Below, one piece after another: positions 13,262-53,979 of a DNA stretch of 53,979 bases (the stretch's first letter is position 1; every line of letters starts with the position of its first letter). This stretch comes from an uncultured Gammaproteobacteria bacterium (GTDB lineage Bacteria; Pseudomonadota; Gammaproteobacteria; Pseudomonadales; Porticoccaceae), in the NCBI GenBank assembly GCA_913060555.1, contig CAJXRS010000004.1:1-53979 (forward strand). Reading direction: 5' to 3'. Under the pieces are notes generated by a model. It saw only the letters and a program-made list of their open reading frames with translations. It was not told the origin of the DNA and did not search any database. Position numbers and translations under genes: made by a program.

Positions 13262-13281
13262 GCATCAGCGCTGCCACCGGC

Positions 13282-14253: not shown

Positions 14254-14413
14254 TGGCGTTTTCCCTTTGGTGATCCGGCGCTGGTCCGATGCGGGGGTTG
14301 GTGGCTCGCATGGCTGGGTTGTCGCCCCGCAGTATTGACCATATGGGGCGCCGCCGCGCGGGCGCGATGAATTTCAGGCTATATCAGTAATCGACATAAT
14401 CACAGGGGATCTC

Positions 14414-15271
14414 ATGAGGAAAGACATAGCAGGCAAAGTCGCCTTTATCACCGGTGCCGCGAGCGGCATGGGTCTGGGTATGGCCAGGGCGTTTTCCGCC
14501 GCCGGCATGAAGGTGATGCTAGCGGATATCGAGAAGACCGCGCTCGATCAGGCGGTGGCCGAACTCAGGGCCCAGGGCTGCGAGGTGGCCGGCGTGGTCA
14601 CCGATGTCACCAGGCGCGATTCGGTGTTTGCCGCCGCGCAGCAGACCATCGACACCTTCGGCAAGGTGCATGTGCTGGTCAACAATGCCGGTGTCGGCGC
14701 CAGTGGCCGCGCCGAGACCACCAGCGAGAAGAACTGGCGCTGGACTATCGACGTCAACCTGTGGGGCGTGGTCTGGGGTCTGCAGGCGTTCCTGCCGCTG
14801 ATCGAGTCCCACGGCGAGGGCGGCCACGTGGTCAACACCGCATCCATGGCCGGCATGTATGCCTGGGGCGAGCTGTCCGCTTATAACGCGTCTAAATACG
14901 CGGTGGTGGCGATGTCGGAGACCGCCATGGCCGAGCATCTCGACGACAACATCGGCGTCTCGGTGCTGTGTCCCGGCGTGGTCAACACCAATCTCGGCAC
15001 CTCGGCGCGCAACCGCCCGGCGCAATACGGCGGCGCCACGGATTCGCGCTCCGAACAGATGGTGGAGATGCTCAAGAAGGGCCTGAGCCCCGATGTGGTC
15101 GGCGAGCAGGTGCTGGAGGCGATCCGTGAAGACCAGCCCTACATCTTCACCGACCCCGGGCTGCGCAAATACGTCCAGGCCCGTTTCGACCGCATCATGC
15201 GGGGCTACGACTGGGCGGATCGGTGTCAGGCGCTGAAAAAGGCCGATCAGCAAACCGACATCGATCTCTAG
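14414..15271 (+). CDS. Short-chain dehydrogenase/reductase, extended C-terminus
   Basis: A 285-residue SDR with TGAASGMG (about residues 14-21), LADIEKTAL (NAD-type Asp), NNAG, NTASMAG and YNASK. It has a C-terminal region about 30 residues longer than the FabG-like SDRs nearby, ending in a charged tail (KKADQQTDIDL). That layout is common among carveol/retinol-type SDRs. It is read from a divergent 160-bp region shared with the epoxide hydrolase, with an AGGGGA ribosome site. It could act on alcohols derived from terpenoid or alicyclic compounds, but this is only inferred from the context. Confidence 0.9.
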   Translation: MRKDIAGKVAFITGAASGMGLGMARAFSAAGMKVMLADIEKTALDQAVAELRAQGCEVAGVVTDVTRRDSVFAAAQQTIDTFGKVHVLVNNAGVGASGRAETTSEKNWRWTIDVNLWGVVWGLQAFLPLIESHGEGGHVVNTASMAGMYAWGELSAYNASKYAVVAMSETAMAEHLDDNIGVSVLCPGVVNTNLGTSARNRPAQYGGATDSRSEQMVEMLKKGLSPDVVGEQVLEAIREDQPYIFTDPGLRKYVQARFDRIMRGYDWADRCQALKKADQQTDIDL

Positions 15272-40398: not shown

Positions 40399-40514
40399 AT
40401 GTCGGCAATACCGATTGCGGCGCGCCGCGAACGCCGCCCAGGGGCGCCTGATAGGGCGGACCAACCGATAACAAAGGCGTGGCCACAGCATCACGCGCCT
40501 GTAGAGTCGTTGTT

Positions 40515-42077
40515 ATGATTCATACCAGCCAGACCGCCCAGTTCATGATGCGTAACGCGCTGCACCGCCACGCCGAGAAGCGCGCGCTGGTGGTCGCGGG
40601 CAGGAACTACAGCTACCGGGAACTCGACCGCCTGTCCGCCACGCTGGCGGCCGCGCTCGCCGATCGGGGCCTGGATCGCGGCGACCGGGTGGCGATCATG
40701 CTGCGCAACTGCGCCGAGTACGCGATCGTCGACCTGGCCATACTCAAGCTGGGCGCGGTCAAGGTGGCGCTCAACGAGATGCTCAGCCGCAGTGACGTCG
40801 GCTACATGATCGCCCATTCCGGCGCCCGGGCTCTGGTGATGCACAGCTCGCTGGCCGACAAGCTCGATGCGGAGGCGCTGGCCGAGACCGACCTGCGTCA
40901 GCAGATCGAGGTGGAGGACCTGGGCGGCGGCGCCGGCGCCGGGCGGGAGCCCTGGCAGGCGCTGTTCGCGGACGGCGAGCGCAGCTTCGAGTGGCGTGAG
41001 GTGTTGCCGGAAGATCCGGCCTTCATCATGTATACCGGCGGTACCACCGGCCGCTCCAAGGGCGTGCTGCACTGCCACCGCGGCATGATGATCAACGGCC
41101 TCGCTCACGTCATCAACGGCGAGATCGGCGAGACCGAGCGTCTGTTGCTGACCAGTCCGCTGCCGCACTCGGCCGGTTTCTTCCTCCAGGCCTGTCTGCT
41201 GCAGGGGGCCTGTGCGTACGTGGAGGACAAATTCGATCCGGCGCAGGTGCTGGAACTCATCGGTCGTGAGCGGATCAGCTGGACCTTCATGGTGCCGACC
41301 ATGATCTACCGGGTGCTGGATGCCTATGATCCGGCGCGCCACGATCTGGAGTCGCTGCGCACCCTGGTCTATGGCGCCGCGCCCATCACCCGGGTGCGCT
41401 TGCAGGAGGTGCTCGACAGGTTCGGCCCGGTGCTGCTGCAACTGTTCGGCCAGACCGAGGTGCCGAATTTCGCCACCAAGCTGTCCAAGGCCGATCACCT
41501 GGACGAGCGCTTCCTGGGCTCCTGCGGGCAGCCGGTGATCACCGCCGACGTGCGCATCGGCGATGCCGCCGGGCGACCGCTGGCCACCGGCGAGGTCGGC
41601 GAGATCATGGTGCGCTCGCCATACACCCTGGAAGGTTACTACCGGGATGCCCAGAAGACCGCCGAGGTTTATGAAGGCGAGTGGATCAAGACCGGCGATG
41701 TCGGTTATCAGCTCGATACCGGCCACGTCTTCATCGTCGATCGATCCAAGGACATGATCATTTCCGGGGGCATGAACGTGTACTCCTCGGAGGTCGAGAA
41801 TGCGATCCAGGAATACGCCGGCGTGCGCCAGGTGATGGTGATCGGCATCCCTCACGAGGACTGGGGCGAGGCGGTGTGCGCGGCGGTGATCCCGGTCGAT
41901 CCAGAGGTCTTCGATTCCCGGGATCTGGTCGCCTTCTGCAAGCAGCGCCTGGCCGCCTACAAGGTGCCCAAGGTGATCGAGGTGGTGGACGATATCCCGC
42001 TCACCGCCTATGGCAAGCCGGACAAGAAGACGCTGCGCGCCAAGTACTGGGGTAGCCAGGAGCGGCAGATTCACTGA
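40515..42077 (+). CDS. AMP-binding acyl-CoA synthetase
   Basis: A 520-residue ANL-superfamily ligase. It has the P-loop MYTGGTTGRSKGVLH (about residues 172-186), the acyl-pocket segment LTSPLPHSAGFFLQ, LVYGAAPIT, LFGQTEVPNF, the WIKTGDVGY hinge, SGGMNVYSSEVENAI and the C-terminal catalytic lysine in AYGKPDKKTLR. It activates a carboxylic acid to its CoA thioester with ATP. The start at 40515 begins directly at the family-typical N-terminus; its ribosome site is weak. An SDR follows by about 40 bp. Confidence 0.92.
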   Translation: MIHTSQTAQFMMRNALHRHAEKRALVVAGRNYSYRELDRLSATLAAALADRGLDRGDRVAIMLRNCAEYAIVDLAILKLGAVKVALNEMLSRSDVGYMIAHSGARALVMHSSLADKLDAEALAETDLRQQIEVEDLGGGAGAGREPWQALFADGERSFEWREVLPEDPAFIMYTGGTTGRSKGVLHCHRGMMINGLAHVINGEIGETERLLLTSPLPHSAGFFLQACLLQGACAYVEDKFDPAQVLELIGRERISWTFMVPTMIYRVLDAYDPARHDLESLRTLVYGAAPITRVRLQEVLDRFGPVLLQLFGQTEVPNFATKLSKADHLDERFLGSCGQPVITADVRIGDAAGRPLATGEVGEIMVRSPYTLEGYYRDAQKTAEVYEGEWIKTGDVGYQLDTGHVFIVDRSKDMIISGGMNVYSSEVENAIQEYAGVRQVMVIGIPHEDWGEAVCAAVIPVDPEVFDSRDLVAFCKQRLAAYKVPKVIEVVDDIPLTAYGKPDKKTLRAKYWGSQERQIH

Positions 42078-42119
42078 AGCCGCATTGCGAGCATTCCAAC
42101 AACCGTCGAGGAGAAAGTC

Positions 42120-42884
42120 ATGGGTAGAGTGCAGGACAAGGTCTGTCTGATCACCGGGGGTACCGCCGGCATCGGCTTCGCCAGCGCCGAGCTGTTCGGC
42201 AGGGAAGGCGGGAAGGTGGTGATCACCGACATCCGCCCGGTGGAGGGCGAGGCCGCTGCGGGCAAGCTGCGTGAACAGGGCTACGATGCCCGCTTCATCG
42301 AGCAGGACGTGACTGCGGAGGCGCGCTGGCCGGCGGTGATTGCCGAGGTAGTGGATCACTACGGCCGTCTGGACGTACTGGTCAACAACGCCGGCGTGGG
42401 CGTCCAGACCGATCTGGAGAACAGCGATCTCGCCCACTGGCGGCTCGTCAACGGCGTCAACATGGAAGCGGTGTTTCTGGGCACCCAGCACGCCATCCGC
42501 CAGATGAAGCAAAACGGCGGCGGCAGCATCATCAACATTTCCTCGATCGAGGGTCTGGTGGGGGATCCAAAATTCGCCGCCTACAACGCCAGCAAGGGCG
42601 GTGTGCGCCTGTTCACCAAGTCGGCGGCGCTCTATTGCGCGGAAAAGAAGTACAACATCCGGGTCAACTCGGTGCATCCCGGGTTTACCAAGACGCCCAT
42701 GGTGGACGGCGCCATTGACCTGTTCTCGCCCCAGGATGCCGAGCGCATCAATCGCGAGATCGTGGTCGGGTACATGGCCGAGCCGATTGATCAAGCCTAC
42801 GGCATCCTGTTTCTCGCTTCCGACGAGTCCCGCTACATGACCGGCGCGGAACTGGTCATCGACGGCGGTTTTACCGCGCACTGA
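42120..42884 (+). CDS. Short-chain dehydrogenase/reductase
   Basis: A 254-residue SDR with TGGTAGIG (about residues 13-20), ITDIRPVEGE, NNAG, NISSIEG with the catalytic serine, YNASK and MTGAELVIDGGFTAH. It has a short insertion after the active site (ALYCAEKKYNIRVNSVHPGF) and belongs to the hydroxysteroid-dehydrogenase-like branch together with those at 271 and 9622. The ribosome site GAGGAGAAAG is strong. It is probably co-transcribed with the CoA ligase and could oxidise a hydroxyacyl-CoA or a cyclic alcohol. Confidence 0.92.
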   Translation: MGRVQDKVCLITGGTAGIGFASAELFGREGGKVVITDIRPVEGEAAAGKLREQGYDARFIEQDVTAEARWPAVIAEVVDHYGRLDVLVNNAGVGVQTDLENSDLAHWRLVNGVNMEAVFLGTQHAIRQMKQNGGGSIINISSIEGLVGDPKFAAYNASKGGVRLFTKSAALYCAEKKYNIRVNSVHPGFTKTPMVDGAIDLFSPQDAERINREIVVGYMAEPIDQAYGILFLASDESRYMTGAELVIDGGFTAH

Positions 42885-43056
42885 GGGCGCCGAGCCGCGC
42901 CGTGCCGGCACAGCCCGTCCGGCCCGGCGCGTCGGCTTTGGGGTATCCTCGGGCGGTACCCGACGAGGTCAGCGACGGCTCCGGCGCGGAGTCGGCGGCG
43001 TTGCCCGCCGTGAAACCGACGGCCGGGGCCGGCCGCAGTATCACAAGGAGGCAGCG

Positions 43057-43728
43057 ATGCGCAGTGTGCTCATCCTCAACGCCAAGGGTGGGTGTGGAAA
43101 GTCCACCCTGGCGACCAATCTTGCCGGTTATTACGCCAGCAAGGGCCGGCGGGTGGTGCTGGCCGACTTCGACCCCCAGGAGTCGGCGCTGGATTGGCTC
43201 GCCGCACGGCCGGCCGAACGCCCGGCGATAACCGGCATCGCCGCCTGGCGCGACGGCTTCCGGGTTCCCAGGGACGCAGATTGGGTGATCATCGACAGCC
43301 CGGCGGCCATCAAGGGCCGCGAACTCTCCGACCTGGTGAGGCGCGCCGACAGCATCCTGATGCCCTTGCTGCCTTCCGCCATGGATGTGCGTGCCGCCAA
43401 TCACTTCATCGGCGACCTCAATGCGGTGCGCAAGGTGGTCAACCGCGAGGTGCGGGTGGCGACCGTGGCCAACCGGGTGCGCGAGCATACCCTGGCCGCC
43501 GCAGAGCTGGAGGGCTACCTGGCCCGCTTCAGCCTGCCCAACGGCAAGCCTTTCCCCTTCCTGGCGGCACTGCGCGCCACCCAGAACTATGTGTGGGCAG
43601 CGGAGCGCGGCCTGTCCATCTTCGAGTTCGCACCGGTCAAGACGTTGCCTGACCGCGAGCAGTGGGTGCGCATCCTGCGCTGGCTGAGCCGTTCGGGCAA
43701 ATCCCGCAGGGCGCGCAAACCCGGTTGA
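43057..43728 (+). CDS. ParA-family ATPase, orphan
   Basis: A 223-residue deviant-Walker ATPase. It has LNAKGGCGKSTLATNLAGYYA (Walker A, residues 7-27), VLADFDPQESALDWL (Walker A-prime), WVIIDSPA (Walker B) and a C-terminal helical region. It lacks a DNA-binding N-terminal domain, and no ParB partner or recognisable centromere-like repeat is nearby, so a plasmid-partition role is unlikely. Orphan ParA-like proteins often position protein clusters or act in uncharacterised pathways. The ribosome site is AAGGAGG. Its neighbours are metabolic SDRs. Confidence 0.88.
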   Translation: MRSVLILNAKGGCGKSTLATNLAGYYASKGRRVVLADFDPQESALDWLAARPAERPAITGIAAWRDGFRVPRDADWVIIDSPAAIKGRELSDLVRRADSILMPLLPSAMDVRAANHFIGDLNAVRKVVNREVRVATVANRVREHTLAAAELEGYLARFSLPNGKPFPFLAALRATQNYVWAAERGLSIFEFAPVKTLPDREQWVRILRWLSRSGKSRRARKPG

Positions 43729-43748: not shown

Positions 43749-44567
43749 TCAGCTCGCGGTACTGCCGCCATCCACCACCAGTTCCGCGCCCGTCACCCAG
43801 GGGGATTGGTCGCTCGCCAGGAAGAGGGCTGCCTTGGCGATATCCGCCGGGGTGCCCTTCATGCCCAGCGGGGTCCCCCGCTCGAAAGCCTGCTGTACCG
43901 AGGCTTCATCCTTGCCGAGTCCGGCGGCGACGAAACCCTTGAGTACCGCGCTGCCCATGTCGGTGGGGATCAGTCCCGGGTGGATCGAGTTGACGCGGAT
44001 GCCGTAGCCAAGTTGACCGAATTCCACGGCGGCGGCCTTGGTCAATAGTTTGACGGCACCCTTGCTGCCGCAGTAGGCGCTGAGGCCGGAGTAGCCGCGC
44101 AGCCCGGCGACCGAGGAGAGATTGATCACGCTGCCGCCGCCGCCCGCCGCACCGCCCGGCTTCATCGCCTTGGCCGCGGCGCGAAGGCCGAGAAATACGC
44201 CGGTCACATTGATGTCGAGGATGCGTTGAAAATCTTTCAGCGTGGTGTTCTCGAGCAGCGCACAGACCTCGATGCCGGCGTTGTTGACCAGGATGTCGAA
44301 TCCGCCGAGCTCGCGAATCGTGGCCGCCACGGTCGCCTCCCAGTCGGTCTCGTTGGTAACGTCCTGGCGGACGAAAGCGGCTTTGCCTCCGGCTGCACGA
44401 ATGGCCTCGGCCGTTTGTCGCCCCTGATCCTCGAGGATGTCGGCGATCATTACCGCGGCGCCGGCGCGCGCCAGGATGGCTGCGATTTCTGCGCCCAGGC
44501 CGCGCGCGGAGCCGGTGATCAGAGCGGCCTTGCCGGCCAGGGAAACTTCGTTGGATGCGTCGGTCAT
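43749..44567 (-). CDS. Short-chain dehydrogenase/reductase
   Basis: A 272-residue SDR with TGSARGLG (about residues 18-25), IADILEDQGRQ, NNAG, NLSSVAG with the catalytic serine, YCGSK and VTGAELVVDGG. A glycine-rich stretch (GGAAGGGGS) precedes the catalytic serine strand. It lies on the minus strand, converges on the ParA gene and is 48 bp downstream of the AraC-type regulator, so it may share that regulator's transcript. It might oxidise an alcohol made by the monooxygenase encoded divergently; this is a positional guess. Confidence 0.92.
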   Translation of the reverse strand: MTDASNEVSLAGKAALITGSARGLGAEIAAILARAGAAVMIADILEDQGRQTAEAIRAAGGKAAFVRQDVTNETDWEATVAATIRELGGFDILVNNAGIEVCALLENTTLKDFQRILDINVTGVFLGLRAAAKAMKPGGAAGGGGSVINLSSVAGLRGYSGLSAYCGSKGAVKLLTKAAAVEFGQLGYGIRVNSIHPGLIPTDMGSAVLKGFVAAGLGKDEASVQQAFERGTPLGMKGTPADIAKAALFLASDQSPWVTGAELVVDGGSTAS

Positions 44568-44615: not shown

Positions 44616-45686
44616 TCAGGTGTCGCGTTCGCGTTCGCGGTATTCGGAAGCCGAACAGCCGCACCAGCGCTTGAAGGCGCGGCGGAAGCTGGCGGTATCC
44701 TGGTAGCCGAGCTCCATGGCGATGGCGTCGATGGACTGGTCGGTATGGCGCAGGGCGTCCATCGCCATCTGCTTGTGCACGTTCTCGCGGAGATCCCGGT
44801 AGGTGGCGCCCTCGGCCTGCAGGTGGCGAATCAGGGTGCGGGCGGAGACGTTGAAGGTCTGCGCCATTTCCTTGAGGGTCGGCATGGCGGCCGGGTCGCG
44901 GCGCAGTTCGCTGAGAATGCGTTGGTGGACCGGAGTCCCGGCGCGCAGCTCCTGCATCTGGTGCTGGAGTTGCTCCTCGGCGAGGCGGTGGATGCGAGCA
45001 TCGGCGGAGACACAGCGCAGGTTCTGGATCGAGGCGGGCAGGATCATCAGGTGGCGTTCGCCATCGAATTCCGTGTTGCCGGAAAAATAGAGGTCATACT
45101 GGTCGACGTAGGGCGGCGGCGGATAACCGAACACCACCCGGCTGTCGGCCAGCGTCTGGCCGCCGACGAACTCCAGGGCGTTCTGCAGGGTGAGCATCAA
45201 GGCTTCCACCACGATCACCCGGAGCTCGGGGCTGGTGAAGGATTCGCGCAGCTCAATGACCAGCTGGTCATCCTGGTAGAACAGATCCATGTCACAGAAG
45301 GTGATCGTGGTCTGGTAGTACTTGGCGATGTCTCTGATCGCCTGGCCCAGGGTGTCGGCGGAAATCACCGCCATGCCGATGGTGCCGTGCTTGGATACGT
45401 GCAATCTGGAGCCCAGCGATAGCCCGGCGTCGGGCATGTCGAGCGCTTCCATCACGGCGAATACGCAGTCCGCCAGCCGTTCGAAGGGGACGGGCGCCGC
45501 GGCGTCGGTCAGTGCTTCCGGCGCCAGGCCATGTTCCCGAAAAATGGCCGCGATCTCCGGCCCGCCACCGAGCGTGTGGAACACCATGTTCGCATAGCTC
45601 GCGTTGACGAACCTGCTGTCGGTCGTGGGTGCCTGTTTGGCCACCGCTTGTTTGTCACAGGCGGGGGTAGCTGGTCGCTGGCTCAT
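44616..45686 (-). CDS. AraC-family transcriptional regulator (Arabinose_bd-type, OruR-like)
   Basis: A 356-residue regulator. The N-terminal two-thirds (about residues 30-225) matches the Arabinose_bd-type effector domain found in OruR-like proteins (SLGSRLHVSKHGTIGMAVISADTLGQAI, then TLQNALEFVGG). The C-terminal HTH region (about 265-350) holds LKEMAQTFNVSARTLIRHLQAEG and a second helix-turn-helix SIDAIAMELGYQDTASFRRAFKRWCG. It is transcribed divergently from pmoC across a 319-bp region containing a 21-bp-spaced direct repeat. It therefore probably activates the monooxygenase operon in response to substrate or product. Confidence 0.92.
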   Translation of the reverse strand: MSQRPATPACDKQAVAKQAPTTDSRFVNASYANMVFHTLGGGPEIAAIFREHGLAPEALTDAAAPVPFERLADCVFAVMEALDMPDAGLSLGSRLHVSKHGTIGMAVISADTLGQAIRDIAKYYQTTITFCDMDLFYQDDQLVIELRESFTSPELRVIVVEALMLTLQNALEFVGGQTLADSRVVFGYPPPPYVDQYDLYFSGNTEFDGERHLMILPASIQNLRCVSADARIHRLAEEQLQHQMQELRAGTPVHQRILSELRRDPAAMPTLKEMAQTFNVSARTLIRHLQAEGATYRDLRENVHKQMAMDALRHTDQSIDAIAMELGYQDTASFRRAFKRWCGCSASEYRERERDT

Positions 45687-45849
45687 GGCGGCTCTGGAAT
45701 CCGGGTCTCGAAGGCGCTACTCCCGGTCCATCCGGGAATAGCCGGTTAGAATTGGTCTAATGGCCCGGTACATTGGATTCTCGCATGAGCGGGGCAGTGC
45801 CGCAAAGCCGCGCTGGCGGTCGCCGGGGGACTTGTTCGGCGGTTACCCA

Positions 45850-45883
45850 TGTCACTTTCTGCAATGTCCCTGTCACTTCCAGC
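45850..45883 (+). promoter_or_regulatory. Candidate AraC-type operator: two direct repeats spaced 21 bp
   Basis: TGTCACTTTCTGC (45850-45862) and TGTCACTTCCAGC (45871-45883) match at 11 of 13 positions and start exactly 21 bp apart, two helical turns. That is the arrangement AraC-family activators use. The proximal repeat ends a few bases upstream of a possible -35 for pmoC. Confidence 0.55.
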
Positions 45884-45887
45884 GCTG

Positions 45888-45916
45888 GCCCTGCACCTGG
45901 GGGCTTGCCTTATAGT
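45888..45916 (+). promoter_or_regulatory. Candidate activator-dependent promoter of pmoCAB
   Basis: TATAGT (45911-45916) is a good -10 box. The matching -35 position (about 45888-45893, GCCCTG) is poor, as expected for a promoter needing an activator bound next to it. A transcript from here would have a leader of about 80 bases. An alternative pair in the same stretch is TTGCCT (45905-45910) with AATAAT (45929-45934). Confidence 0.4.
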
Positions 45917-46005
45917 GCTCCCACGATGAATAATTCCTGTGCATCAGTAAAAGAATCGCAGGTTATGGGTTCCAGGGTTTAATAACCGAAGGTGGGGTGA
46001 TTGCC

Positions 46006-46827
46006 ATGTCCGAAGTGAAAGCGGCCCAATATGGGTATGAGGTTCCAACCGACTATATGGAAGAAACCGCTGCCGGTGGCGGGCTTGCGGGTCATCTGCG
46101 CCGCAACCGTCTCGCCTATATAGGCGGTGCGCTCTTGCTGGCGGTGGGCATCGGCATCCGTATCTACCAACAGATGATGTCCTTCAGCGTCGGCATGGAC
46201 TTTTACGAGCCGGAATTCCAGACCTACTGGATGCCGTTGCTCTACGGGGAAGTCATCGTGCTCGGCAGCATCATGGTGCTGGGCTCGATCTACATGTGGA
46301 TGACGCGCGAAAAGGACGCCGCTTCGATTACACCCGAAGTGGAGTTGAAGCGCTATTTCACGCTGCTCGGGGTGTTTACCGTGCTGGGCGTCTGGGCAGC
46401 CCTGATCGGTGCCCTGGCGGTGGAGTCCGATGCGGCCTGGCACCAGGTGGCAATTCGCGATACCGACTTCACGCCAACCCACATCGTGATCTTTTATTTC
46501 TCGCTACCGCTGCTGACGGCGATCCTGATTCCCACCTTTATCTGGGCCCATACCCGTATTCCGGCGTTCATGAACCGCATTTCGGTGCCTTTTCTGGGTG
46601 TGGTTGCGGGGATCTTCATGATCATGCCCAACTATGGGTTCAACGAATGGGGTCATACCTTCTTCTACGCTGAAGAGCTGTTCGCGGCACCGATTCACTG
46701 GGGCTTTGTAGTGCTGGGCTGGTCGCTGTTCTTCCTCGGGCCGCTCGCCGTACAGCTGATTCAACGCATGGCGCAGCTGATTTCGGTGGTCACCACTGGT
46801 CGTGATTGCATGATCGCTGATCGCTGA
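46006..46827 (+). CDS. pmoC: Copper membrane monooxygenase subunit C (PmoC/AmoC family)
   Basis: A 273-residue integral membrane subunit. Landmarks are IRIYQQMMSFSVGMDFYEPEFQTYW, AWHQVAIRDTDFTPTHIVIFY and FNEWGHTFFYAEELFAAPIHW. The CuC ligands Asp142, His146 and His159 and the CuD ligands Asn213, His217 and His231 sit at a constant offset of 14 from the Methylococcus residues 156/160/173 and 227/231/245, so both copper sites should be intact. The first landmark is also AmoC-like. The ATG at 46006 is chosen over GTG 45997; AAGGTGGGG precedes both. It is the first gene of the C-A-B operon. Confidence 0.93.
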   Translation: MSEVKAAQYGYEVPTDYMEETAAGGGLAGHLRRNRLAYIGGALLLAVGIGIRIYQQMMSFSVGMDFYEPEFQTYWMPLLYGEVIVLGSIMVLGSIYMWMTREKDAASITPEVELKRYFTLLGVFTVLGVWAALIGALAVESDAAWHQVAIRDTDFTPTHIVIFYFSLPLLTAILIPTFIWAHTRIPAFMNRISVPFLGVVAGIFMIMPNYGFNEWGHTFFYAEELFAAPIHWGFVVLGWSLFFLGPLAVQLIQRMAQLISVVTTGRDCMIADR

Positions 46828-46839
46828 TCGCCGCCGCGG

Positions 46840-46876
46840 AGCCCCGCCCCTCGTTCCACGTGCCACGGGCGGGGCT
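46840..46876 (+). terminator. Strong hairpin between pmoC and pmoA
   Basis: AGCCCCGCCC (46840-46849) pairs perfectly with GGGCGGGGCT (46867-46876) around a 17-base loop, 13 bp after the pmoC stop. There is no T tract, so it is more likely a processing or partial-termination site that sets subunit message ratios than a full terminator. The 144-bp pmoC-pmoA gap is long compared with the 20-bp pmoA-pmoB gap. Confidence 0.65.
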
Positions 46877-46971
46877 TCGCAGGCAGTCCCCTCAAAGTTC
46901 TCCGGCTTGGTGCATCGCGGTCGGCAGCTTGTCCGCCCGTCGATGTGCCCCCATGTCCCAAGGTGCGTTTC

Positions 46972-47766
46972 ATGGCCAATATCGCGCTTCCCGCGCCCAG
47001 GATCACCGACGCATCCGGGCACTATGATCTCTCCATTCTGGACAATCCCCGTGCCCGCAGTTACTACCGGCGCTTCGATGGCATCCTGATCATTGTGCTG
47101 TTCAGCTTCCTCGCGCTGGGCATTTCCATTCACTATGCCCTGACCGCAGGGGACTGGGACTACTGGATCGACTGGCGGGATCGCCGCTGGTGGCCACTGG
47201 TCACCCCCCTGTCGTTGATGATGTTCATCGGCGGCTTCGTGTATCCGATCTGGAAAGCCTTTCGCCTGCCGGTCATCGCGACGGCGGTCACCACTTTGCT
47301 CTGTCTGGTGTCCTGGGTGAGTCGCTATTTCAATTTCGGCCAGTTCACCGACTTTCCGCTGTCGTTCACCTTTCCCTCGACCTACATCGGCTTGGGGGTG
47401 ATTTTCGACTCCGTGCTGATCATGACCCGCAGCCTGCTGATCTCCGCCATTGTCGGCCCCTTTCTGTTCGGCGCCCTGATCTGGCCCCTCAACTGGCCCT
47501 TGTTTGCCGCCTCCAAGGTGCCCGTCGAATACAGCGGGACTTTGGTGTCGGTGGCCGATCTCATGGGCTACCAGTACATTCGCACCACGACGCCCGAATA
47601 TTTGCGGATCATAGAGGAGTCCACATTGCGCACCTTCGGGGGTTCGGTGACCCCGCTGACCGCAGTATTTTCGGCCTTTGTCGCGGTGATCGGCTATTCA
47701 CTGTTTCTGCTGTTGGGTGCGGCTCTGTACAACTTCGCCGGCCGCTACGCCCGGCGCATCATCTGA
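46972..47766 (+). CDS. pmoA: Copper membrane monooxygenase subunit A (PmoA/AmoA family)
   Basis: A 264-residue membrane subunit with about seven helices. Family hallmarks are the GDWDYWIDWRDRRWWPLVTPL stretch after the first helix, FPSTYIGLGVIFDSVLIMTRS, FGALIWPLNWPLFAASKVPVEYSG, and the C-terminal YIRTTTPEYLRIIEESTLRTFGGSVTPLTAVFSAF. The start at 46972 has AAGGTG 6 bp upstream; a frame from GTG 46945 adds nine residues of no family character. The sequence shares the conserved helix anchors of PmoA/AmoA, but I cannot place its clade by eye. Confidence 0.94.
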   Translation: MANIALPAPRITDASGHYDLSILDNPRARSYYRRFDGILIIVLFSFLALGISIHYALTAGDWDYWIDWRDRRWWPLVTPLSLMMFIGGFVYPIWKAFRLPVIATAVTTLLCLVSWVSRYFNFGQFTDFPLSFTFPSTYIGLGVIFDSVLIMTRSLLISAIVGPFLFGALIWPLNWPLFAASKVPVEYSGTLVSVADLMGYQYIRTTTPEYLRIIEESTLRTFGGSVTPLTAVFSAFVAVIGYSLFLLLGAALYNFAGRYARRII

Positions 47767-47786
47767 TGTGGATCAGGAGGCCTGCC

Positions 47787-49049
47787 ATGAACACTGCCAA
47801 ATCCCGATCCCCTGCGCGTTATCTCGGCAATGCCTTAGTGCTCGGCGTACTGGTCCTGCTGGCGCTGCCGATGGAGGCCGTCGCCCATGGCGAGCGCGCG
47901 CAGCTCGCCAGCATGCGGATGCGCACGCTGCACTGGTTCGATATAGAGGTGTCGCCCGTTCGGGTCAATGTCGGAGACACCATCGTGATCACCGGCAAGT
48001 TCATCCCCTCGGAGTTCTGGCCAGAACAGTTGCCTTCGGTTACAGATACCGCTTTCCTGAACGTGGGCGCTCCGGGGCCGAAGTTCATCCGCGTGCATTC
48101 GGAAGTCAATGGCGTGCCCATGATCCGCTCGACCGCGTTCGAACCGGGCAAGCTCTACGAGTTCAAGAGTGTGGTTCGCGCCCGGGTTCCGGGGCGCTAC
48201 CACATCCACCCGCTGCTCAACGTCAAGGACGCCGGCACCCTGGTCGGCAAGGGCTCCTGGGTGGAGGTCGAGCCTTCGCCAACGGGTGAACCCTTCACCA
48301 ATGAGATCACCACGTTGACCGGAGAGACCGTCGATCTCGAGAATGTGGGTCTGAAGAGCGTGATCGGCTGGCATCTGGTGTGGATCCTGGTCGGTGTGGC
48401 CTTCCTGGCCTACTGGCTGGCCAAGCCGGAGCTCTTTATCCCCCGTTACATGCGGGTTCGCAACCTGGGGCCGGAGCAGGCCAATACCATGATCACCCGC
48501 CGGGATTTCCTGGCTGGCGGGATATTTTTCACCATCTCGATGGTGCTGATCCTGGCGGGTTATCTGTGGGCCGAGCACAAGTACCCGGTCACCATTCCAC
48601 TGCAGACCGGTAAGGTCGGCGTGCCTGGCCGGCCGGTGCCCAGTGGTCCCCTGGTGGTCGAGGTGGAAAACGCGAATTACGAGCTGGCCGGTCGCAGTCT
48701 GACCATGCGGATGAAGCTCGCCAACGAGGGCGACAGCCCGATCGAGATCCGCGAATTCGTTACCGCCAACATTCGCTTCATCAATGGTCCGGCCGCAGCG
48801 GCGGGCGTCGTGGAAAACGAAGAGCTGGTGGCGGGCGACAGCCTGCACTCATCAGTGTCGACCATAGCGCCCGGACAGCACGTCGACGTCGTGCTCCGCG
48901 CAGAGGATTCACTCTGGGAAACCCAGCGGATGACGGGATTGATCCATGACCCCGACAGCCGCTTTGCGGGTCTGCTCGTCTACCGGGACGCGGAAGGCAA
49001 GCGCTATTATCAGGAGGTCGGCGGATCCATTCTGCCGAAGTTCTTCTGA
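47787..49049 (+). CDS. pmoB: Copper membrane monooxygenase subunit B (PmoB/AmoB family)
   Basis: A 420-residue subunit with a signal peptide cut after Ala33, so that mature residue 1 is His34. Two cupredoxin domains are separated by two membrane helices (about 190-212 and 238-262). The CuB site is complete: His34 (AHGER), His139 and His141 (YHIHPLL), matching Methylococcus His33/137/139. His49 (RTLHW) matches His48 of the bis-His site, but its partner (His72 in Methylococcus) appears to be Ile73 here. CAGGAGG precedes the ATG; the open frame continuing upstream inside pmoA is not coding. Confidence 0.94.
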   Translation: MNTAKSRSPARYLGNALVLGVLVLLALPMEAVAHGERAQLASMRMRTLHWFDIEVSPVRVNVGDTIVITGKFIPSEFWPEQLPSVTDTAFLNVGAPGPKFIRVHSEVNGVPMIRSTAFEPGKLYEFKSVVRARVPGRYHIHPLLNVKDAGTLVGKGSWVEVEPSPTGEPFTNEITTLTGETVDLENVGLKSVIGWHLVWILVGVAFLAYWLAKPELFIPRYMRVRNLGPEQANTMITRRDFLAGGIFFTISMVLILAGYLWAEHKYPVTIPLQTGKVGVPGRPVPSGPLVVEVENANYELAGRSLTMRMKLANEGDSPIEIREFVTANIRFINGPAAAAGVVENEELVAGDSLHSSVSTIAPGQHVDVVLRAEDSLWETQRMTGLIHDPDSRFAGLLVYRDAEGKRYYQEVGGSILPKFF

Positions 49050-49054
49050 CGGCA

Positions 49055-49672
49055 ATGGCGAGCGGGTGCGCCCGGGTTATCGGGAAGCGGTATTGGGGAT
49101 TCGCCCTGGCGTCGCTGCTGCTCATCGCGGCGGCGCCGTCGGTGTGTTTCGCCCATGGCGGCGTCTCCATGGAAGATGACGTCTGCATCATCCAGATTGG
49201 CCGCTACAAAGCCCATTTCACCGGGTATCTACCTGCAAGTCGGGCTACCCAGGAATTTTGCGAGGATATTCCGTCGATCGGCAATGCGGTGTTCGTCATC
49301 GATTTCATCAGCGACGAACTGCGGGAAATGGAGCTCGATTTTCGCATCGTCCGCGATGTCAATCGCGCCGGCTTGGGCGCCACCTATGAAGAACTGGGCG
49401 GTGAAAAGGCGATAGAGGATGCGACTATTTTCCATGCGCCCATGCGGCGCTACCCCAGAGGAGTAATCAGTCTGGAGTACCCCTTTGTCGCCAAGGGGAC
49501 CTATATCGGCATTCTCAATGCCCGGCATCTGGCCACGGGGCTGGCCTACAGATCCATCTTCCCGTTCCGGGTGGGGCGGGTCTCCTACCTGAGGTATGTG
49601 TTGTATTTCGGCGCCGTATTGGTCGGCTGCGGATTGTTTGTCTGGATGGCTGGGCGCCGCACGTACTTCTGA
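49055..49672 (+). CDS. Membrane-anchored periplasmic protein with predicted N-terminal histidine, linked to pmoCAB
   Basis: A 205-residue protein starting 5 bp after pmoB. A signal peptide (residues 1-33, ending VCFA) would leave His34-Gly-Gly as the mature N-terminus, the same position as in PmoB. The mature part has Met39, Cys44, His54 and Cys69 in a beta-rich domain (VCIIQIGRYKAHFTGYLP, QEFCEDIP, VFVIDFISDELREMELDFRIVRD), and a single C-terminal helix (about 176-198). By position it takes the place of PmoD, though I do not recognise the CuA-type Cys-Met motif. A copper-handling or assembly role is inferred. Confidence 0.78.
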   Translation: MASGCARVIGKRYWGFALASLLLIAAAPSVCFAHGGVSMEDDVCIIQIGRYKAHFTGYLPASRATQEFCEDIPSIGNAVFVIDFISDELREMELDFRIVRDVNRAGLGATYEELGGEKAIEDATIFHAPMRRYPRGVISLEYPFVAKGTYIGILNARHLATGLAYRSIFPFRVGRVSYLRYVLYFGAVLVGCGLFVWMAGRRTYF

Positions 49673-49864
49673 TCACCGAGTTGCGGGTTCGTGGTTTCGA
49701 CTGTTCGGAGTGTCGCGCCGACTCTGTGGTCGGGCGCCTGCCCCCGAGGTCATTCCGGTTACCATTTGGCAACAACCTGTATTTACAGATTTTTTACTCC
49801 CCCACAGGGTGTGTCAGGTATGGATGGTCACAATAGTCCATGATAGAGTCCGCCCTGCTTCATG

Positions 49865-49902
49865 AACGTAAAGCGACCTGAATAACGTAAAGCGACCTGA
49901 AT
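49865..49902 (+). repeat. Perfect tandem duplication of a 19-bp unit upstream of the RND transporter
   Basis: AACGTAAAGCGACCTGAAT occurs twice head to tail. It lies in the 309-bp gap between the N-terminal-His protein and the transporter, 80 bp before the TTG start. That gap also holds a weak stem CTGTATTTACAG followed by six T, a possible terminator of the pmo transcript; nothing else was recognised. The repeat may be an operator with sites two turns apart or a simple duplication. Confidence 0.85.
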
Positions 49903-49981
49903 AAGGGATTACGCCGGCGAGGCGATAATACGAAGTAACAAAAAGACCCTGGCTTTTCACGACTGGGGGACGGGGGGGATC

Positions 49982-52411
49982 TTGAAAACCTTGCGTTATA
50001 GAGTTTCTGAGTTCGTCATGCACAATGTCTGGCTGTCCCTGCTGCTGTTGCTGGCAGTCACAGCTTTTTTTGCCTGGGGGCTCCGGCACGTCGAGCTGAA
50101 AACGGTATTTTCCGACCTGCTGCCCAAGACTCACCCCTTTGTGCAGGTCTACAAGGACCATCCCAACTTTGGCAATCCCTTGACCGTGACCGTGATGGTG
50201 AAGCGCACCGACGGCCAGACCATCTACAACCCCGAGACCTTGCAGAAGGTCTGGGACATGACCCGAAATATCGACCTGACTCCGGGTGTCGACCACGATC
50301 AGGTGCTTTCCATCACTACCGAGAAAGCCCGATACGCGGAAGCGACGCCCTTCGGCATCGATTCCCAACCGCTGATGGGGGATCACGCACCGACAACCCC
50401 CGAGGAGGTCGCAGAGTTCCGGGAGCGAGTCAAGAAGTCCCCGGCCAGCCAGGCGTTCCTGATTTCCGATGATGAAACCGCAACCCTGATCCAGGCGACC
50501 TTTATCGAACGGCTGCTGGATTACCAGACGGTGTTCAACTTCATCCAGGAGAAGCTGGTCGAGGCCGAAGCGGATGAAGTCCACGAAATTCATGTCGCCG
50601 GACAACCCATGCTCACCGGTTGGGTGTTTTACCACCAGCACCAGATGATCTTCATCTTCATGGTGACCGCTGGTGCGCTGCTGCTCTCGCTGGTGCTCTA
50701 TATGCGCAATGTCGCCGGTGTGGTGGTGCCGGTGGTCTGTGCCGCGGTGGCCGCGGTCTGGGGGTTCGGCTTCGTGGGCTGGCTGCAGGATCCCATCGAG
50801 CCCCTGATCATGGTGGTGCCCTTGCTGCTGGTGGCCCGCTCCTTCAGTCACAGCGTGCAGGTGATCGAGCGTTACTATGAGGTCTACTACCACGTCCGTG
50901 ACAAAAAAAAGGCGGCGGAAATCTCCCTCGGCGTGATGATGGCTCCCGGCACTCTGGGCATAATTACCGACGCGGCCGGCCTGTTTCTCATCGGTGTGGC
51001 GCCAATTCCAACCATGGAACGCTTTGCACTGTTCTGTGGCTTCTGGGCACTCTCCATGGTTCCCGCCAACGTCTTTCTGGCGCCCATGCTGCTGTCCCTC
51101 CTTCCCGAGCCCAGGAATATTCGCAAGCTGATCGGGACCGAAGAAGACGAAGGCTTCAACATTCACCGCAGCATCAAGCACGGCCTGCAGCGTTTCTCCA
51201 GGCTGAGTTTTGGGCCGGCGGCGCGGGTAACAACGGTGGTCGCCGTGGTGCTGGTCGGGTTCAGTGTCTACAAGATGCTGCAGATCAAGATCGGCAATCC
51301 GGTGGAAGGCAGCAATCTGCTCTGGGAGGACTCCGACTACAATGTCGCGGTCAGCAAGATCAACAGCCACTTCCCCGGGCTGAACACCCTGGAAATCATC
51401 TTCGAGGTCAAGGAAGAGGAGCAGTCGCGGCTGTTACGCCAGGCCAATACCATCTTCACCATGACTGAACTACAGCGTGCGATCGAACTTTCGGAAGACC
51501 CGCCAGAGGCGACCCTGTCTTTCGCCGACTACCTGCCGGAAGCCAACCGGTTGTTCAGCGGCGGCAATCCCAAGTGGGCGCCGCTCGACCCCAATCAACA
51601 GGCGGTGGAAGCCGCCGCCGGAGCGGTGCTGTTCGGCAGTAGTCCCAAGGCGTTTTCCCATGTCTCGGATTTCGTTCAGCAAAACGGCACGGTATCGCTC
51701 TGGTACAAGGACAACAAGCAAGAGACCGTGGACGTTGCGCTCAAGCAGGTGCGCGAGGCGCTCGACGAAATCGGTATCGACCAAGAGAAATTCCTGATCC
51801 GGCTGGGTTCGGGCACCATCGCCCTGCAACAGTCGATCAACGACACCGTCGATAACTATCAGTATGTGATCCTTGCGCTGTTGAATGTTGCCATCCTGAT
51901 TGCGGCAGCAATCGCTTACCGATCCCTGGTGGCTGGGGTCGTGCTGCTGCTACCTGTGAACATCTCCAACGCTTTCCTCGCGACGGTAATGGTTTATATG
52001 GGTATCGGCCTGGACGTGAATACATTACCGATTGCGGCGATCGGCATCGGGGTGGGCATCGACTACGGCATCTATCTACTGAGCCGGATCTGCGAGGAAT
52101 ATCAGGGTCACAAGGATTACGGCATGGCTATCTATGCTTCGGTAGCGACAACCGGTAAGGCTATCTTTTTTACCGCGACCATCGTGCTGCTGGCGATCCT
52201 GCCGTGGTATTTCCTGTCCGAATTGAAGTTCCTGGCCGATATGGGCCTGCTGTTGGTGATGGTGATGTTGATCAACATGATCGTGGCCCTGGTGCTGGTG
52301 CCCCTGCTGGTGTGGTTGATCAAGCCGAAATTCGTGGCTTCGGACAAGCTGCTGGTTGGCGAAGGTATCAATCTGGAAGACTACGTCTCGGGGGACGAAG
52401 CTTATTCGTGA
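49982..52411 (+). CDS. RND/MMPL-family transporter
   Basis: An 809-residue inner-membrane protein with the two-fold RND layout: helix 1 (about residues 14-32), a periplasmic loop (33-215), a helix bundle (about 215-385, sterol-sensing-like: VVPVVCAAVAAVWGFGF), a seventh helix (about 415-432), a second loop and a final bundle (about 620-790) ending in VALVLVPLLVWLIKPKF. It starts at TTG with GGGGACGGGGGGG upstream; the first ATG is at codon 13. It is of the hydrophobe-exporter type associated with YCF48 and DUF1329/DUF1302 genes. A YCF48 gene follows, so it probably moves lipids or hydrophobic substrates across the envelope. Confidence 0.9.
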   Translation: MKTLRYRVSEFVMHNVWLSLLLLLAVTAFFAWGLRHVELKTVFSDLLPKTHPFVQVYKDHPNFGNPLTVTVMVKRTDGQTIYNPETLQKVWDMTRNIDLTPGVDHDQVLSITTEKARYAEATPFGIDSQPLMGDHAPTTPEEVAEFRERVKKSPASQAFLISDDETATLIQATFIERLLDYQTVFNFIQEKLVEAEADEVHEIHVAGQPMLTGWVFYHQHQMIFIFMVTAGALLLSLVLYMRNVAGVVVPVVCAAVAAVWGFGFVGWLQDPIEPLIMVVPLLLVARSFSHSVQVIERYYEVYYHVRDKKKAAEISLGVMMAPGTLGIITDAAGLFLIGVAPIPTMERFALFCGFWALSMVPANVFLAPMLLSLLPEPRNIRKLIGTEEDEGFNIHRSIKHGLQRFSRLSFGPAARVTTVVAVVLVGFSVYKMLQIKIGNPVEGSNLLWEDSDYNVAVSKINSHFPGLNTLEIIFEVKEEEQSRLLRQANTIFTMTELQRAIELSEDPPEATLSFADYLPEANRLFSGGNPKWAPLDPNQQAVEAAAGAVLFGSSPKAFSHVSDFVQQNGTVSLWYKDNKQETVDVALKQVREALDEIGIDQEKFLIRLGSGTIALQQSINDTVDNYQYVILALLNVAILIAAAIAYRSLVAGVVLLLPVNISNAFLATVMVYMGIGLDVNTLPIAAIGIGVGIDYGIYLLSRICEEYQGHKDYGMAIYASVATTGKAIFFTATIVLLAILPWYFLSELKFLADMGLLLVMVMLINMIVALVLVPLLVWLIKPKFVASDKLLVGEGINLEDYVSGDEAYS

Positions 52412-52458
52412 TTGCGGCGGGCAGACAGCAGAACGGGGTTAACAGGGGGCAAGTGAAG

Positions 52459-52671
52459 ATGTATATCAAGAACTACGATTTTGACTACAGTCGGCGATTT
52501 TTTCTGGAGAACACGGCACAGGGCGCGACGGATGCGGGTGTGCCGACCTCACTGTGGCCGTTGATCGGCAAAACGGGAGAGATTGGCAGGGCGCACCCGG
52601 AAGAGCTGCAGTCGCTGGACGCCTATGACAAGTATCTCACCATCCAGGCCATCCGCAGACTGGGTAGCTGA
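52459..52671 (+). CDS. Short protein with twin-arginine leader, probable truncated duplicate
   Basis: A 70-residue frame starting MYIKNYDFDYSRRFFLEN. SRRFFL is a good Tat motif, followed by a hydrophobic stretch (GVPTSLWPLIG). The same leader, differing at about one base in ten, begins the gene at 53835. After PEELQSLDAYDKY the frame soon ends, so this is either a small secreted peptide or the 5' remnant of a duplicated gene. The similarity continues upstream through the AACAGG ribosome region. It is three bases before the YCF48 gene. Confidence 0.6.
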   Translation: MYIKNYDFDYSRRFFLENTAQGATDAGVPTSLWPLIGKTGEIGRAHPEELQSLDAYDKYLTIQAIRRLGS

Positions 52672-52673
52672 TC

Positions 52674-53618
52674 ATGATGCAGAGATCAAAGCGCTCTCTT
52701 CGAGCCTTGTGCCTCGCCGCTGGTCTTCTCGCAGGTGCTGCTGTTACGGCGGAAGAGAACTTTTCCGTGCGTTACCAGGGCATCGCGCACGATGCTCTCT
52801 ACGATATCTGTTTCAGCGGCACCACGGGCTTTGCGGCCGGTATTGCGGGAACCATCTTCACCAGCGACGACCAGGGCGAAAACTGGCAGCCCCAGGGATC
52901 GCTGGGGCCAGAGGCGATTCTGGGCCTGTACTGTGGCGCAGATACGGTGCTGGCGGTCGGGCAGGGTGGTGCAATCCATCGCAAGAGTGACGGTGAGTGG
53001 CAGCAAGTGGATTCGGGCAGCGATGCCAGGCTGCTGGACGTCAGCGCCAACCGCAGTGGTCTGGCCGTGGTCGTGGGCGGTTTCGGCACAGTACTGAGGT
53101 CCAGCGATGGCGGCCGCTCCTGGGAGCCGCTGTCGTTCGACTGGGAGACCCTGCTCAACGATTTCCTGGAACCTCATCTCTATGACGTGGCGGTCTCCGA
53201 AGCGGGGGTGATCACCATCGTCGGCGAGTTTGCCATGGTGTTGCGTTCGGTCGACGGTGGCGAAACCTGGGAGATGGTACACCGTGGCGATGCCTCGCTG
53301 TTTGCCCTCGACCTGGACGGTGACGTCGGTTATGCCGTTGGCCAGAACGGTGTCATCTTGAAGACTGGTGACGGCGGACAGACCTGGAGCCGGCAGGACG
53401 CAGGCTCTGAGGCAAACCTGCTCGATGTGCTGGTTGACCGGGATGGCGTGGTACATGTCACTGGCATTCGCACGCTGTTGCAAAGCAGCGACAGCGGCAA
53501 TACCTGGGCTGCCAACCAAGCTGGCGATATCAGTTACCGTTGGTACCAATCCCTGGGTCTCTCCGAATCGGGGGTTTTCATGGTTGGCCACTCCGGCCTC
53601 ATCGTTCGTATCAAATAA
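52674..53618 (+). CDS. YCF48/Asp-box beta-propeller protein, periplasmic
   Basis: A 314-residue secreted protein with an N-terminal signal (LRALCLAAGLLAGAAVTAEE). The mature part is a repeated propeller with five Asp-box turns: SDDQGENW, SSDGGRSW, SVDGGETW, TGDGGQTW and SSDSGNTW. It is of the HCF136/YCF48 type, which acts in complex assembly; bacterial members accompany RND/MMPL transporters. Two adjacent ATGs (52674, 52677) can serve as start. It follows the transporter with only the short Tat peptide between. Confidence 0.9.
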   Translation: MMQRSKRSLRALCLAAGLLAGAAVTAEENFSVRYQGIAHDALYDICFSGTTGFAAGIAGTIFTSDDQGENWQPQGSLGPEAILGLYCGADTVLAVGQGGAIHRKSDGEWQQVDSGSDARLLDVSANRSGLAVVVGGFGTVLRSSDGGRSWEPLSFDWETLLNDFLEPHLYDVAVSEAGVITIVGEFAMVLRSVDGGETWEMVHRGDASLFALDLDGDVGYAVGQNGVILKTGDGGQTWSRQDAGSEANLLDVLVDRDGVVHVTGIRTLLQSSDSGNTWAANQAGDISYRWYQSLGLSESGVFMVGHSGLIVRIK

Positions 53619-53834
53619 TTAAGAGAAGGTTCGACTCCGCGTATCGATTGCCCGGTTTGCAATTGGGTACGGTACTTTGCGCATGGCGACTATCGAGACA
53701 GCGTGAAGCCATCGCTGTAGCGACCGTTGTAACAACTGATGGCTGCGGAAAACTCCGGTTTATCCTGCCGTCACCAGGAGGTTAGAGAACCGGGCCGATG
53801 ACTGCCGTATAGACACAACAGGAGGTAACCTAAG

Positions 53835-53979
53835 ATGTATATCAAGAAATACGATTTTGACTACAGCCGGCGATTTTTTCTGGAGAAGACGGCGCAGGGA
53901 GCGATGGGTGCGGGTGTGCTGACCTCGCTGTGGCCGTTGATCGGCAATACGGGAGAGATTGGCAAGGCGTACCCGGAGG
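53835..53979 (+). CDS. Twin-arginine-leader protein, N-terminal part (cut by window edge; possibly DUF1329 family)
   Basis: About 48 residues are visible. MYIKKYDFDYSRRFFLEK contains a textbook Tat motif (SRRFFLEK), then GAGVLTSLWPLIG as hydrophobic core. A strong AGGAGGT lies 8 bp upstream. By synteny with RND-YCF48 clusters, the full gene could be the DUF1329 outer-membrane-associated component, but only the leader is seen, so this is inference. It duplicates the frame at 52459. The 216-bp gap before it holds nothing recognisable apart from the ribosome site. Confidence 0.7.
   Translation, partial: MYIKKYDFDYSRRFFLEKTAQGAMGAGVLTSLWPLIGNTGEIGKAYPE

Follow-up and report, generated by a model that had tools for sequence, protein, structure and literature searches.

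Copper membrane monooxygenases (CuMMOs) without a known substrate recur in genomes, often named for methane or ammonia oxidation. Hydrocarbon-type CuMMOs are also described (pHMO/pBMO, including HmoCAB of Mycolicibacterium chubuense NBB4), and the group-X forms of Cycloclasticus are counted among them. Here, we describe a pmoCABD operon with a transporter cassette behind it in a window of 53,979 nucleotides, which is the entire contig CAJXRS010000004.1 (C4) of an uncultured gammaproteobacterium of the family Porticoccaceae (GCA_913060555.1; 2.95 Mb, 199 contigs, 97.96% complete). In the same family, Candidatus Reddybacter, studied by Arrington and colleagues in 2023, reportedly carries pmo genes of a novel clade associated with methylcyclohexane and methylcyclopentane. 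A 2023 paper on this family and methylated cycloalkanes is among the references of PMC13390413.

Expression of the NBB4 pHMO lowers ethane, propane, and butane (PMC6440738). A Porticoccaceae metagenome-assembled genome with pmoABC (MAG-28) has been published (PMC11296632), and the host group has been met in oiled seawater samples (PMC8478444). PmoD/AmoD, encoded after pmoB, has a solved structure from Methylocystis (6CPD). Its motif classes include a CuA-forming Cx7MxHxnC class and a Cx9HxnC class, in which the member that was tested binds copper but shows no CuA features (PMC6189053). For the transporter, the closest system is AmeABCD of Castellaniella defragrans, an HAE3 exporter composed of DUF1302, DUF1329, YCF48/COG4447, and RND proteins. 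It gives Castellaniella tolerance to the monoterpenes that it eats, and its deletion lowers tolerance to non-functionalized monoterpenes (PMC6394551).

Compared with these systems, the locus is best explained as a hydrocarbon-oxidizing pmoCABD operon with an Ame-type exporter cassette behind it, which we consider fairly probable. This explanation is built on gene content, copper-ligand stretches, gene order, a conserved operator-like site before pmoC, and a like site before a P450 gene in eight relatives. If it is true, a site shared with alkane P450s and a fixed exporter neighbor would give a sequence-based hint that a CuMMO acts on hydrocarbons. An initial annotation, made from the letters of this DNA, had proposed the combination as a candidate for an undescribed system. 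The coupling of the two halves is now better supported than that annotation could know, but the word undescribed does not hold for the halves, which are both of known kinds (pmoCABD; AmeABCD type, PMC6394551), and Porticoccaceae pmoABC is already in print (PMC11296632). In the partly covered literature that we searched, we found neither a fixed pmo-Ame unit nor an operator-like site shared with a CYP153-type hydroxylase. The same applies to the reports on Porticoccaceae pmo as far as they were available, where Ame linkage, operator, and P450-shared site were not found; the Reddybacter study may report some of these.

The pmoCABD operon

The complete operon spans positions 46006–49672 on the forward strand. 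The subunit genes pmoC (46006–46827; alternative GTG start at 45997), pmoA (46972–47766), and pmoB (47787–49049) had been recognized in the initial annotation, and each product matches its own Pfam family (AmoC, 4.2e-68; AMO, 3.4e-71; Monooxygenase_B, 2.3e-119). With its C-A-B subunits in a single operon, the enzyme belongs to the CuMMOs. The stretches that we take to carry the copper ligands are intact in alignment with the NBB4, Rhodococcus, and Methylomagnum forms, namely the mature N-terminal His-Gly-Glu and HxH of PmoB and RDT.FTP.H and NEWGH...H of PmoC. The C-A-B order, these stretches, and the heterotroph host are common to the window and the hydrocarbon-type forms. However, the NBB4 PmoA is distant (37% over 67%) and falls in a separate clade. 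Downstream of the NBB4 genes are two small hypothetical proteins and an AMP-binding gene, whereas PmoD and the Ame-type cassette follow in the window.

We built two PmoA trees of 45 and 54 rows, with identical rows merged; the second omits L036, L042, L051, and L055–L057 (G, L, and C numbers denote genomes, loci, and contigs of our set). In both trees, the PmoA proteins of the family and of L058, a locus outside the family set, form one clade (support 100/99 and 100/100), whose neighbors are forms from Nevskiaceae, Comamonadaceae, and other gammaproteobacteria. The clade lies outside that of the solved methanotroph pMMOs, as the initial annotation had expected. Long branches make the deeper branching order unsure, and the trees do not include Haliea, SAR324, and Cycloclasticus forms or named ammonia oxidizers.

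The enzyme could instead be a methane or ammonia monooxygenase, with the host a cryptic methanotroph or nitrifier. Records and papers apply such names to genes of this kind (PMC11296632), even to the NBB4 hydrocarbon form, and PmoB exceeds the NCBIfam AmoB cut-off (457 versus 336), which counts against a hydrocarbon enzyme. PmoA and PmoC stay below the AmoA and AmoC cut-offs, so the three subunits do not all score as a bacterial ammonia monooxygenase, and the separate PmoA clade also argues against this alternative. The initial annotation had noted no methanol-oxidation genes in the rest of the window. One whole-genome search agrees and likewise speaks against this alternative, finding no PQQ methanol dehydrogenase (TIGR03075) over the cut-off, but 14 control genomes were equally blank and gave no positive control; a search with PF13447 (HAO) had no match in the genome, and its control was also silent. 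Overall, we regard methane or ammonia oxidation as highly improbable.

The fourth gene, pmoD (49055–49672, forward), encodes a 205-aa protein without a Pfam or NCBIfam family match. The initial annotation had described it as an N-terminal-His membrane protein; this protein is real and, judged by its profile and predicted fold, is a PmoD. A profile of 27 sequences matches 6CPD at 2.2e-19, and the predicted model (mean pLDDT 85.5) matches the same structure at E 4.9e-13 with a TM-score by target of 0.87. The idea of a new protein was rejected by the 6CPD match. The protein has an N-terminal hydrophobic leader, and it shares with 6CPD the cupredoxin-type domain, two invariant cysteines, the C-terminal helix, and the position after pmoB. 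All 27 sequences share H34, C44, H54, and C69, and also an HGG where the mature N-terminus probably lies. C44, H54, and C69 make up the motif Cx9HxnC, which places the window PmoD in this class and not in the CuA-forming one. The alignment holds the window and 26 further sequences; of 31 candidates, L045 (masked start), L058 (no ATG in range), L039, L055, and L056 were dropped.

A direct repeat before pmoC and P450 genes

An AraC-family regulator gene (Arabinose_bd and HTH_18 by Pfam; 44616–45686, reverse) lies divergent from pmoC and is the candidate activator. In the aligned pmoC upstream regions, the best-conserved stretch is TGTCACTTTCTGC-N8-TGTCA (45850–45875, forward), a direct repeat with a 21-bp period and our candidate operator. 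AraC-type proteins bind direct repeats of this kind. The enzyme is probably a hydrocarbon hydroxylase under AraC control, and the site makes both regulator and substrate directly testable in an uncultured group. Wherever a family genome covers this region, the candidate operator precedes pmoC (14 of 14, own included), with a 9-bp spacer in G002. A TATAGT hexamer 35 bp after it (45911–45916, forward) may serve as a −10 element; by eye, similar hexamers stand at about equal distance in several relatives and after several of the P450-linked sites described below. A promoter and terminator scan of 45600–53979 was uninformative (3 promoter sites against 3.3 expected and 10 terminator-like sites against 6.3).

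We searched 20 genomes with the operator pattern and found 25 sites at up to 2 mismatches, compared with 1 for the backward-pattern control. Thirteen of the sites are at pmoC by construction, since the pattern was derived from pmoC regions. Eight more lie on the right strand 51–153 bp ahead of the earliest start possible for a P450 gene, and all eight genes are P450 by Pfam. They occur in 7 of the 16 family genomes with pmo and in the pmo-less G003. The remaining four are a site about 80 bp before an ABC-transporter gene (L211) and three inside reading frames. The own genome has a single site, at pmoC. A looser search of the loci examined (up to 3 mismatches) added chance-like matches in L020/L033, L129, and L172.

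The one P450 tested (L206) is of CYP153 type and matches the CYP153A7 alkane hydroxylase at 2e-167; its top match, 7ANT, is named only cytochrome P450. CYP153 alkane hydroxylases are unrelated to the CuMMO and these genes lie outside the window, yet the site before the P450 gene in the relatives resembles that before pmoC. The sharing argues further against methane or ammonia as the substrate. The P450 link, together with the short-chain dehydrogenase/reductase (SDR) and acyl-CoA genes and the transporter, points to a hydrocarbon as the best reading of the substrate. Alkanes or cycloalkanes would be the substrate class, and C2–C8 or cyclic alkanes appear likeliest. The initial annotation had favored a short alkane or alkene; the CYP153-type partner and the methylcycloalkane study named above point at least as well to liquid C5–C8 or cyclic alkanes.

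The Ame-type cassette and its linkage to pmo

Behind the operon, an AmeD-like RND transporter gene (49982–52411, forward; TTG start; Pfam MMPL) is followed by an AmeC-like YCF48/COG4447-type beta-propeller gene (52674–53618, forward; PSII_BNR, 8e-23). Pfam thus confirms the MMPL-type RND protein and the YCF48 propeller of the initial annotation, and all genes in 46006–53979 are co-directional as it had stated, with intergenic gaps of 2–309 bp. The best NCBIfam match of the RND protein is HAE3 (TIGR00921), below the cut-off (159.5 versus 351.9 bits). The "Tat-leader proteins" of the initial annotation fared unequally. One is a relic of an AmeB-like DUF1329 gene (52459–52671, forward; 70 aa), in which the N-terminus is joined to the C-terminus and the middle is missing. 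The other stands as the start of a second AmeB-like DUF1329 gene (53835–53979, forward), assigned by homology to the DUF1329 protein of contig C76; its twin-arginine motif was identified by eye, and the contig, and with it the window, stops after 48 codons of the gene. At the DNA level, the relic shares 89% identity with the next copy (161 bp) and 86–87% with both ends of the C76 copy.

The RND, DUF1329, and YCF48 proteins and the DUF1302 protein of relatives would be parts of a tetrapartite exporter like AmeABCD. The four component types of the Castellaniella system are identical to those of the relatives' cassette. However, the family orders are D-B-C-A or D-C-B-A, compared with A-B-C upstream of D in Castellaniella, and the cassette here is attached to a CuMMO operon. 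Other family members carry genes for a 564-aa multicopper-oxidase-like protein (MCO) and a His-rich Cu-oxidase_2 protein (CuOx2) between pmoD and RND, judged where contigs cover this interval. RND, DUF1329, YCF48, and DUF1302 genes stand in line behind these copper genes in G007, G040, and G045. The four parts are also in line from CuOx2 onward in G018, and in G002 with two extra open reading frames (ORFs) inserted. MCO and CuOx2 are missing from the gap in the window (G000) and in G001; the own MCO (cut by the contig start) and CuOx2 genes are on contig C173.

The initial annotation had suggested conserved synteny with the RND gene as a check, and we found it. Among the 193 genomes searched, 21 carry PF02461, counting the own genome, and 16 of these belong to the family. 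In 13 of these 16 (G000, G001, G002, G007, G009, G020, G027, G028, G035, G040, G044, G045, and G049), pmo and RND are co-directional on one contig. In two others (G018 and G039), the CuOx2 gene, the tail gene of the operon, is linked to RND on a second contig, and in G034 contig ends split pmo from RND. Close RND homologues occur in all 16 genomes, own included.

An RND tree of 36 proteins (without the incomplete RNDs of G001, G028, and G049, and with G034 labeled pmo-linked) clusters 12 of the 13 from family pmo genomes (94/90), with the window's own branch beside them in an unsettled placement. At L058, the cassette is divergent and upstream of a related pmo operon. Its RND pairs with an unlinked protein of another family (96/92), apart from those of the window's family. 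Given the branches with good support, the pmo-linked label must have changed at least twice. This different tree position and the opposite arrangement suggest that pmo and Ame genes may have been joined on two occasions; the alternative is one old linkage with later losses.

Several findings weigh against the proposed explanation. The window's cassette has a broken DUF1329 gene next to RND and no DUF1302 on its contig (a DUF1329-DUF1302 pair is on C76), and G044 has no intact DUF1329 or DUF1302 gene after YCF48. G003, G023, G063, G090, and G161 have the same RND lineage but no pmo, and it also occurs in five genomes of other families, among which G403 has pmo on another contig. Among 29 out-of-family pmo loci with flanks, some on short contigs, a close RND is nearby only at L058, with a weak match at L050 (59 bits); 12 further pmo matches are outside this count. 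On the regulatory side, the candidate operator is not repeated before RND in the loci examined, and the gap before RND is 244–497 bp long in 11 of the 12 loci measured. The latter figure uses only gap lengths from the upstream alignment and leaves out L031, whose value of 1244 reflects an RND frame broken by N. The missing operator and this gap suggest that the cassette may have its own promoter or be expressed separately, so co-expression of the two halves is best treated as possible. The AraC gene adjoins pmo in L027, L029, L032, L033, and L059, whereas eight operator-bearing family loci (L028, L031, and L034–L039) have none beside pmo, which makes the regulator-operator pairing a guess. Finally, 9 of the 16 family pmo genomes (own included) lack a P450-linked site even when 2 mismatches are allowed, in a search that did not look for CYP153 itself.

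Much of this would fit pmo and a solvent-tolerance cassette that are neighbors by descent only, from the family ancestor and without a functional tie. Family conservation may be one event, as the RND cluster allows, and the gap before RND, the missing operator, and the RND lineage without pmo are all expected on such an account. However, the order has been kept over three genera despite loss of the two copper genes (G000 and G001) and reshuffling within the cassette, and a close RND homologue has been retained in every family pmo genome. The second arrangement at L058 also speaks against descent alone, although early linkage with losses could produce it. We therefore hold a purely inherited neighborhood to be unlikely.

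Transport may also run in the other direction. The cassette could import a hydrophobic substrate, or it could remodel membrane lipids to house the enzyme, as HpnN does with hopanoids. The HAE3 group includes hopanoid transporters (PMC6394551), the RND protein has a weak HpnN match, and LolA_like is a further match of the L034 DUF1329 protein. Against this, the studied cassette of equal composition was reported as an exporter on the basis of Nile Red and monoterpene tolerance (PMC6394551). In addition, in the pmo-less G063 (L143, 10542–19880) genes for an SDR and a P450 stand behind the four-part cassette, which fits catabolism better than lipid make-up. Import or lipid remodeling thus seems doubtful to about the same degree as neighborhood by descent. 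As G063 suggests, the cassette may travel with different hydroxylases.

In the favored explanation, a hydrocarbon-oxidizing operon with an exporter behind it, a hydrocarbon would be sensed and the AraC-family protein (44616–45686) would bind the repeat at 45850–45875 and switch pmoCABD on. PmoABC would hydroxylate the hydrocarbon in the membrane, assisted by the copper protein PmoD and by the two copper-oxidase-like proteins encoded elsewhere in the genome. SDR dehydrogenases and acyl-CoA synthetase would carry the alcohol to central metabolism. The cassette (RND, DUF1329, and YCF48, with DUF1302 in relatives) would clear hydrophobic substrate or product from the membrane, conferring tolerance to the compound that is eaten. 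A more ambitious version, which we offer tentatively and would sooner doubt than accept, is that a single AraC-type activator drives the CuMMO and CYP153 through the shared operator. The CuMMO, the tetrapartite exporter, and the copper-oxidase helpers would then form one envelope machine for toxic liquid alkanes and cycloalkanes, assembled from pmo and Ame components on two or more independent occasions.

Some further observations concern the cassette. Relatives have DUF1329 on one side of YCF48 or the other (RND-DUF1329-YCF48 or RND-YCF48-DUF1329). In the window, a DUF1329 relic precedes YCF48 and a second copy follows it, an arrangement that resembles a transitional stage in an order change by duplication and loss. 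The contigs of L037, L038, and L039 break just after RND, at or before the DUF1329 start, much as the window ends within a copy of this gene; the repetition of DUF1329 may halt assembly at those ends. By eye, the same RND lineage stands beside an acetone carboxylase-like set in another family (L177–L179, from G403, G282, and G503). A long ORF of L092 (3652–6096) was considered as an RND gene and ruled out, its Pfam match being TPR only.

Flanking genes and the pmoD-RND gap

The initial annotation had described the rest of the window as organic-compound catabolism. This is largely correct for the 30 other window ORFs compared with Pfam, 3 of which have no family. They include SDRs, acyl-CoA dehydrogenases, an acyl-CoA synthetase, luciferase-like monooxygenases, a CoA-transferase, and amidohydrolases, but also MFS transporters, a methyltransferase, a radical-SAM protein, and a ParA-like protein. 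A search of the own genome for FMO-like proteins gave 12 places and was too broad to indicate a Baeyer-Villiger enzyme.

An upstream block of acyl-CoA synthetase (AMP-binding), SDR, and ParA-like NTPase genes (40479–43728, forward; Pfam) is kept with the operon in identical order in L027, L029 (with two SDRs), and L059. Between this block and the AraC gene is a further SDR gene (43749–44567, reverse; adh_short), which has an equivalent position in L027, L029, L032, and L059. The whole order of acyl-CoA synthetase, SDR, ParA-like, SDR, and AraC genes upstream of pmo is retained in L027, L029, and L059.

An MCO gene, mostly with CuOx2, also follows pmoD in 11 of the 29 out-of-family pmo loci. 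In the family locus L034 it is at 12701–15050, and the 11 out-of-family loci are L041–L044, L046, L049, L050, L058, L065, L067, and L186; L042 and L049 run out at contig ends. For the role of MCO after pmoD, no description was found in the literature searched, as far as it was available. In the window, the gap between pmoD and RND (49673–49981, forward; 309 bp) contains a 19-bp tandem duplication at 49865–49902, which is possibly a scar of the MCO and CuOx2 loss.

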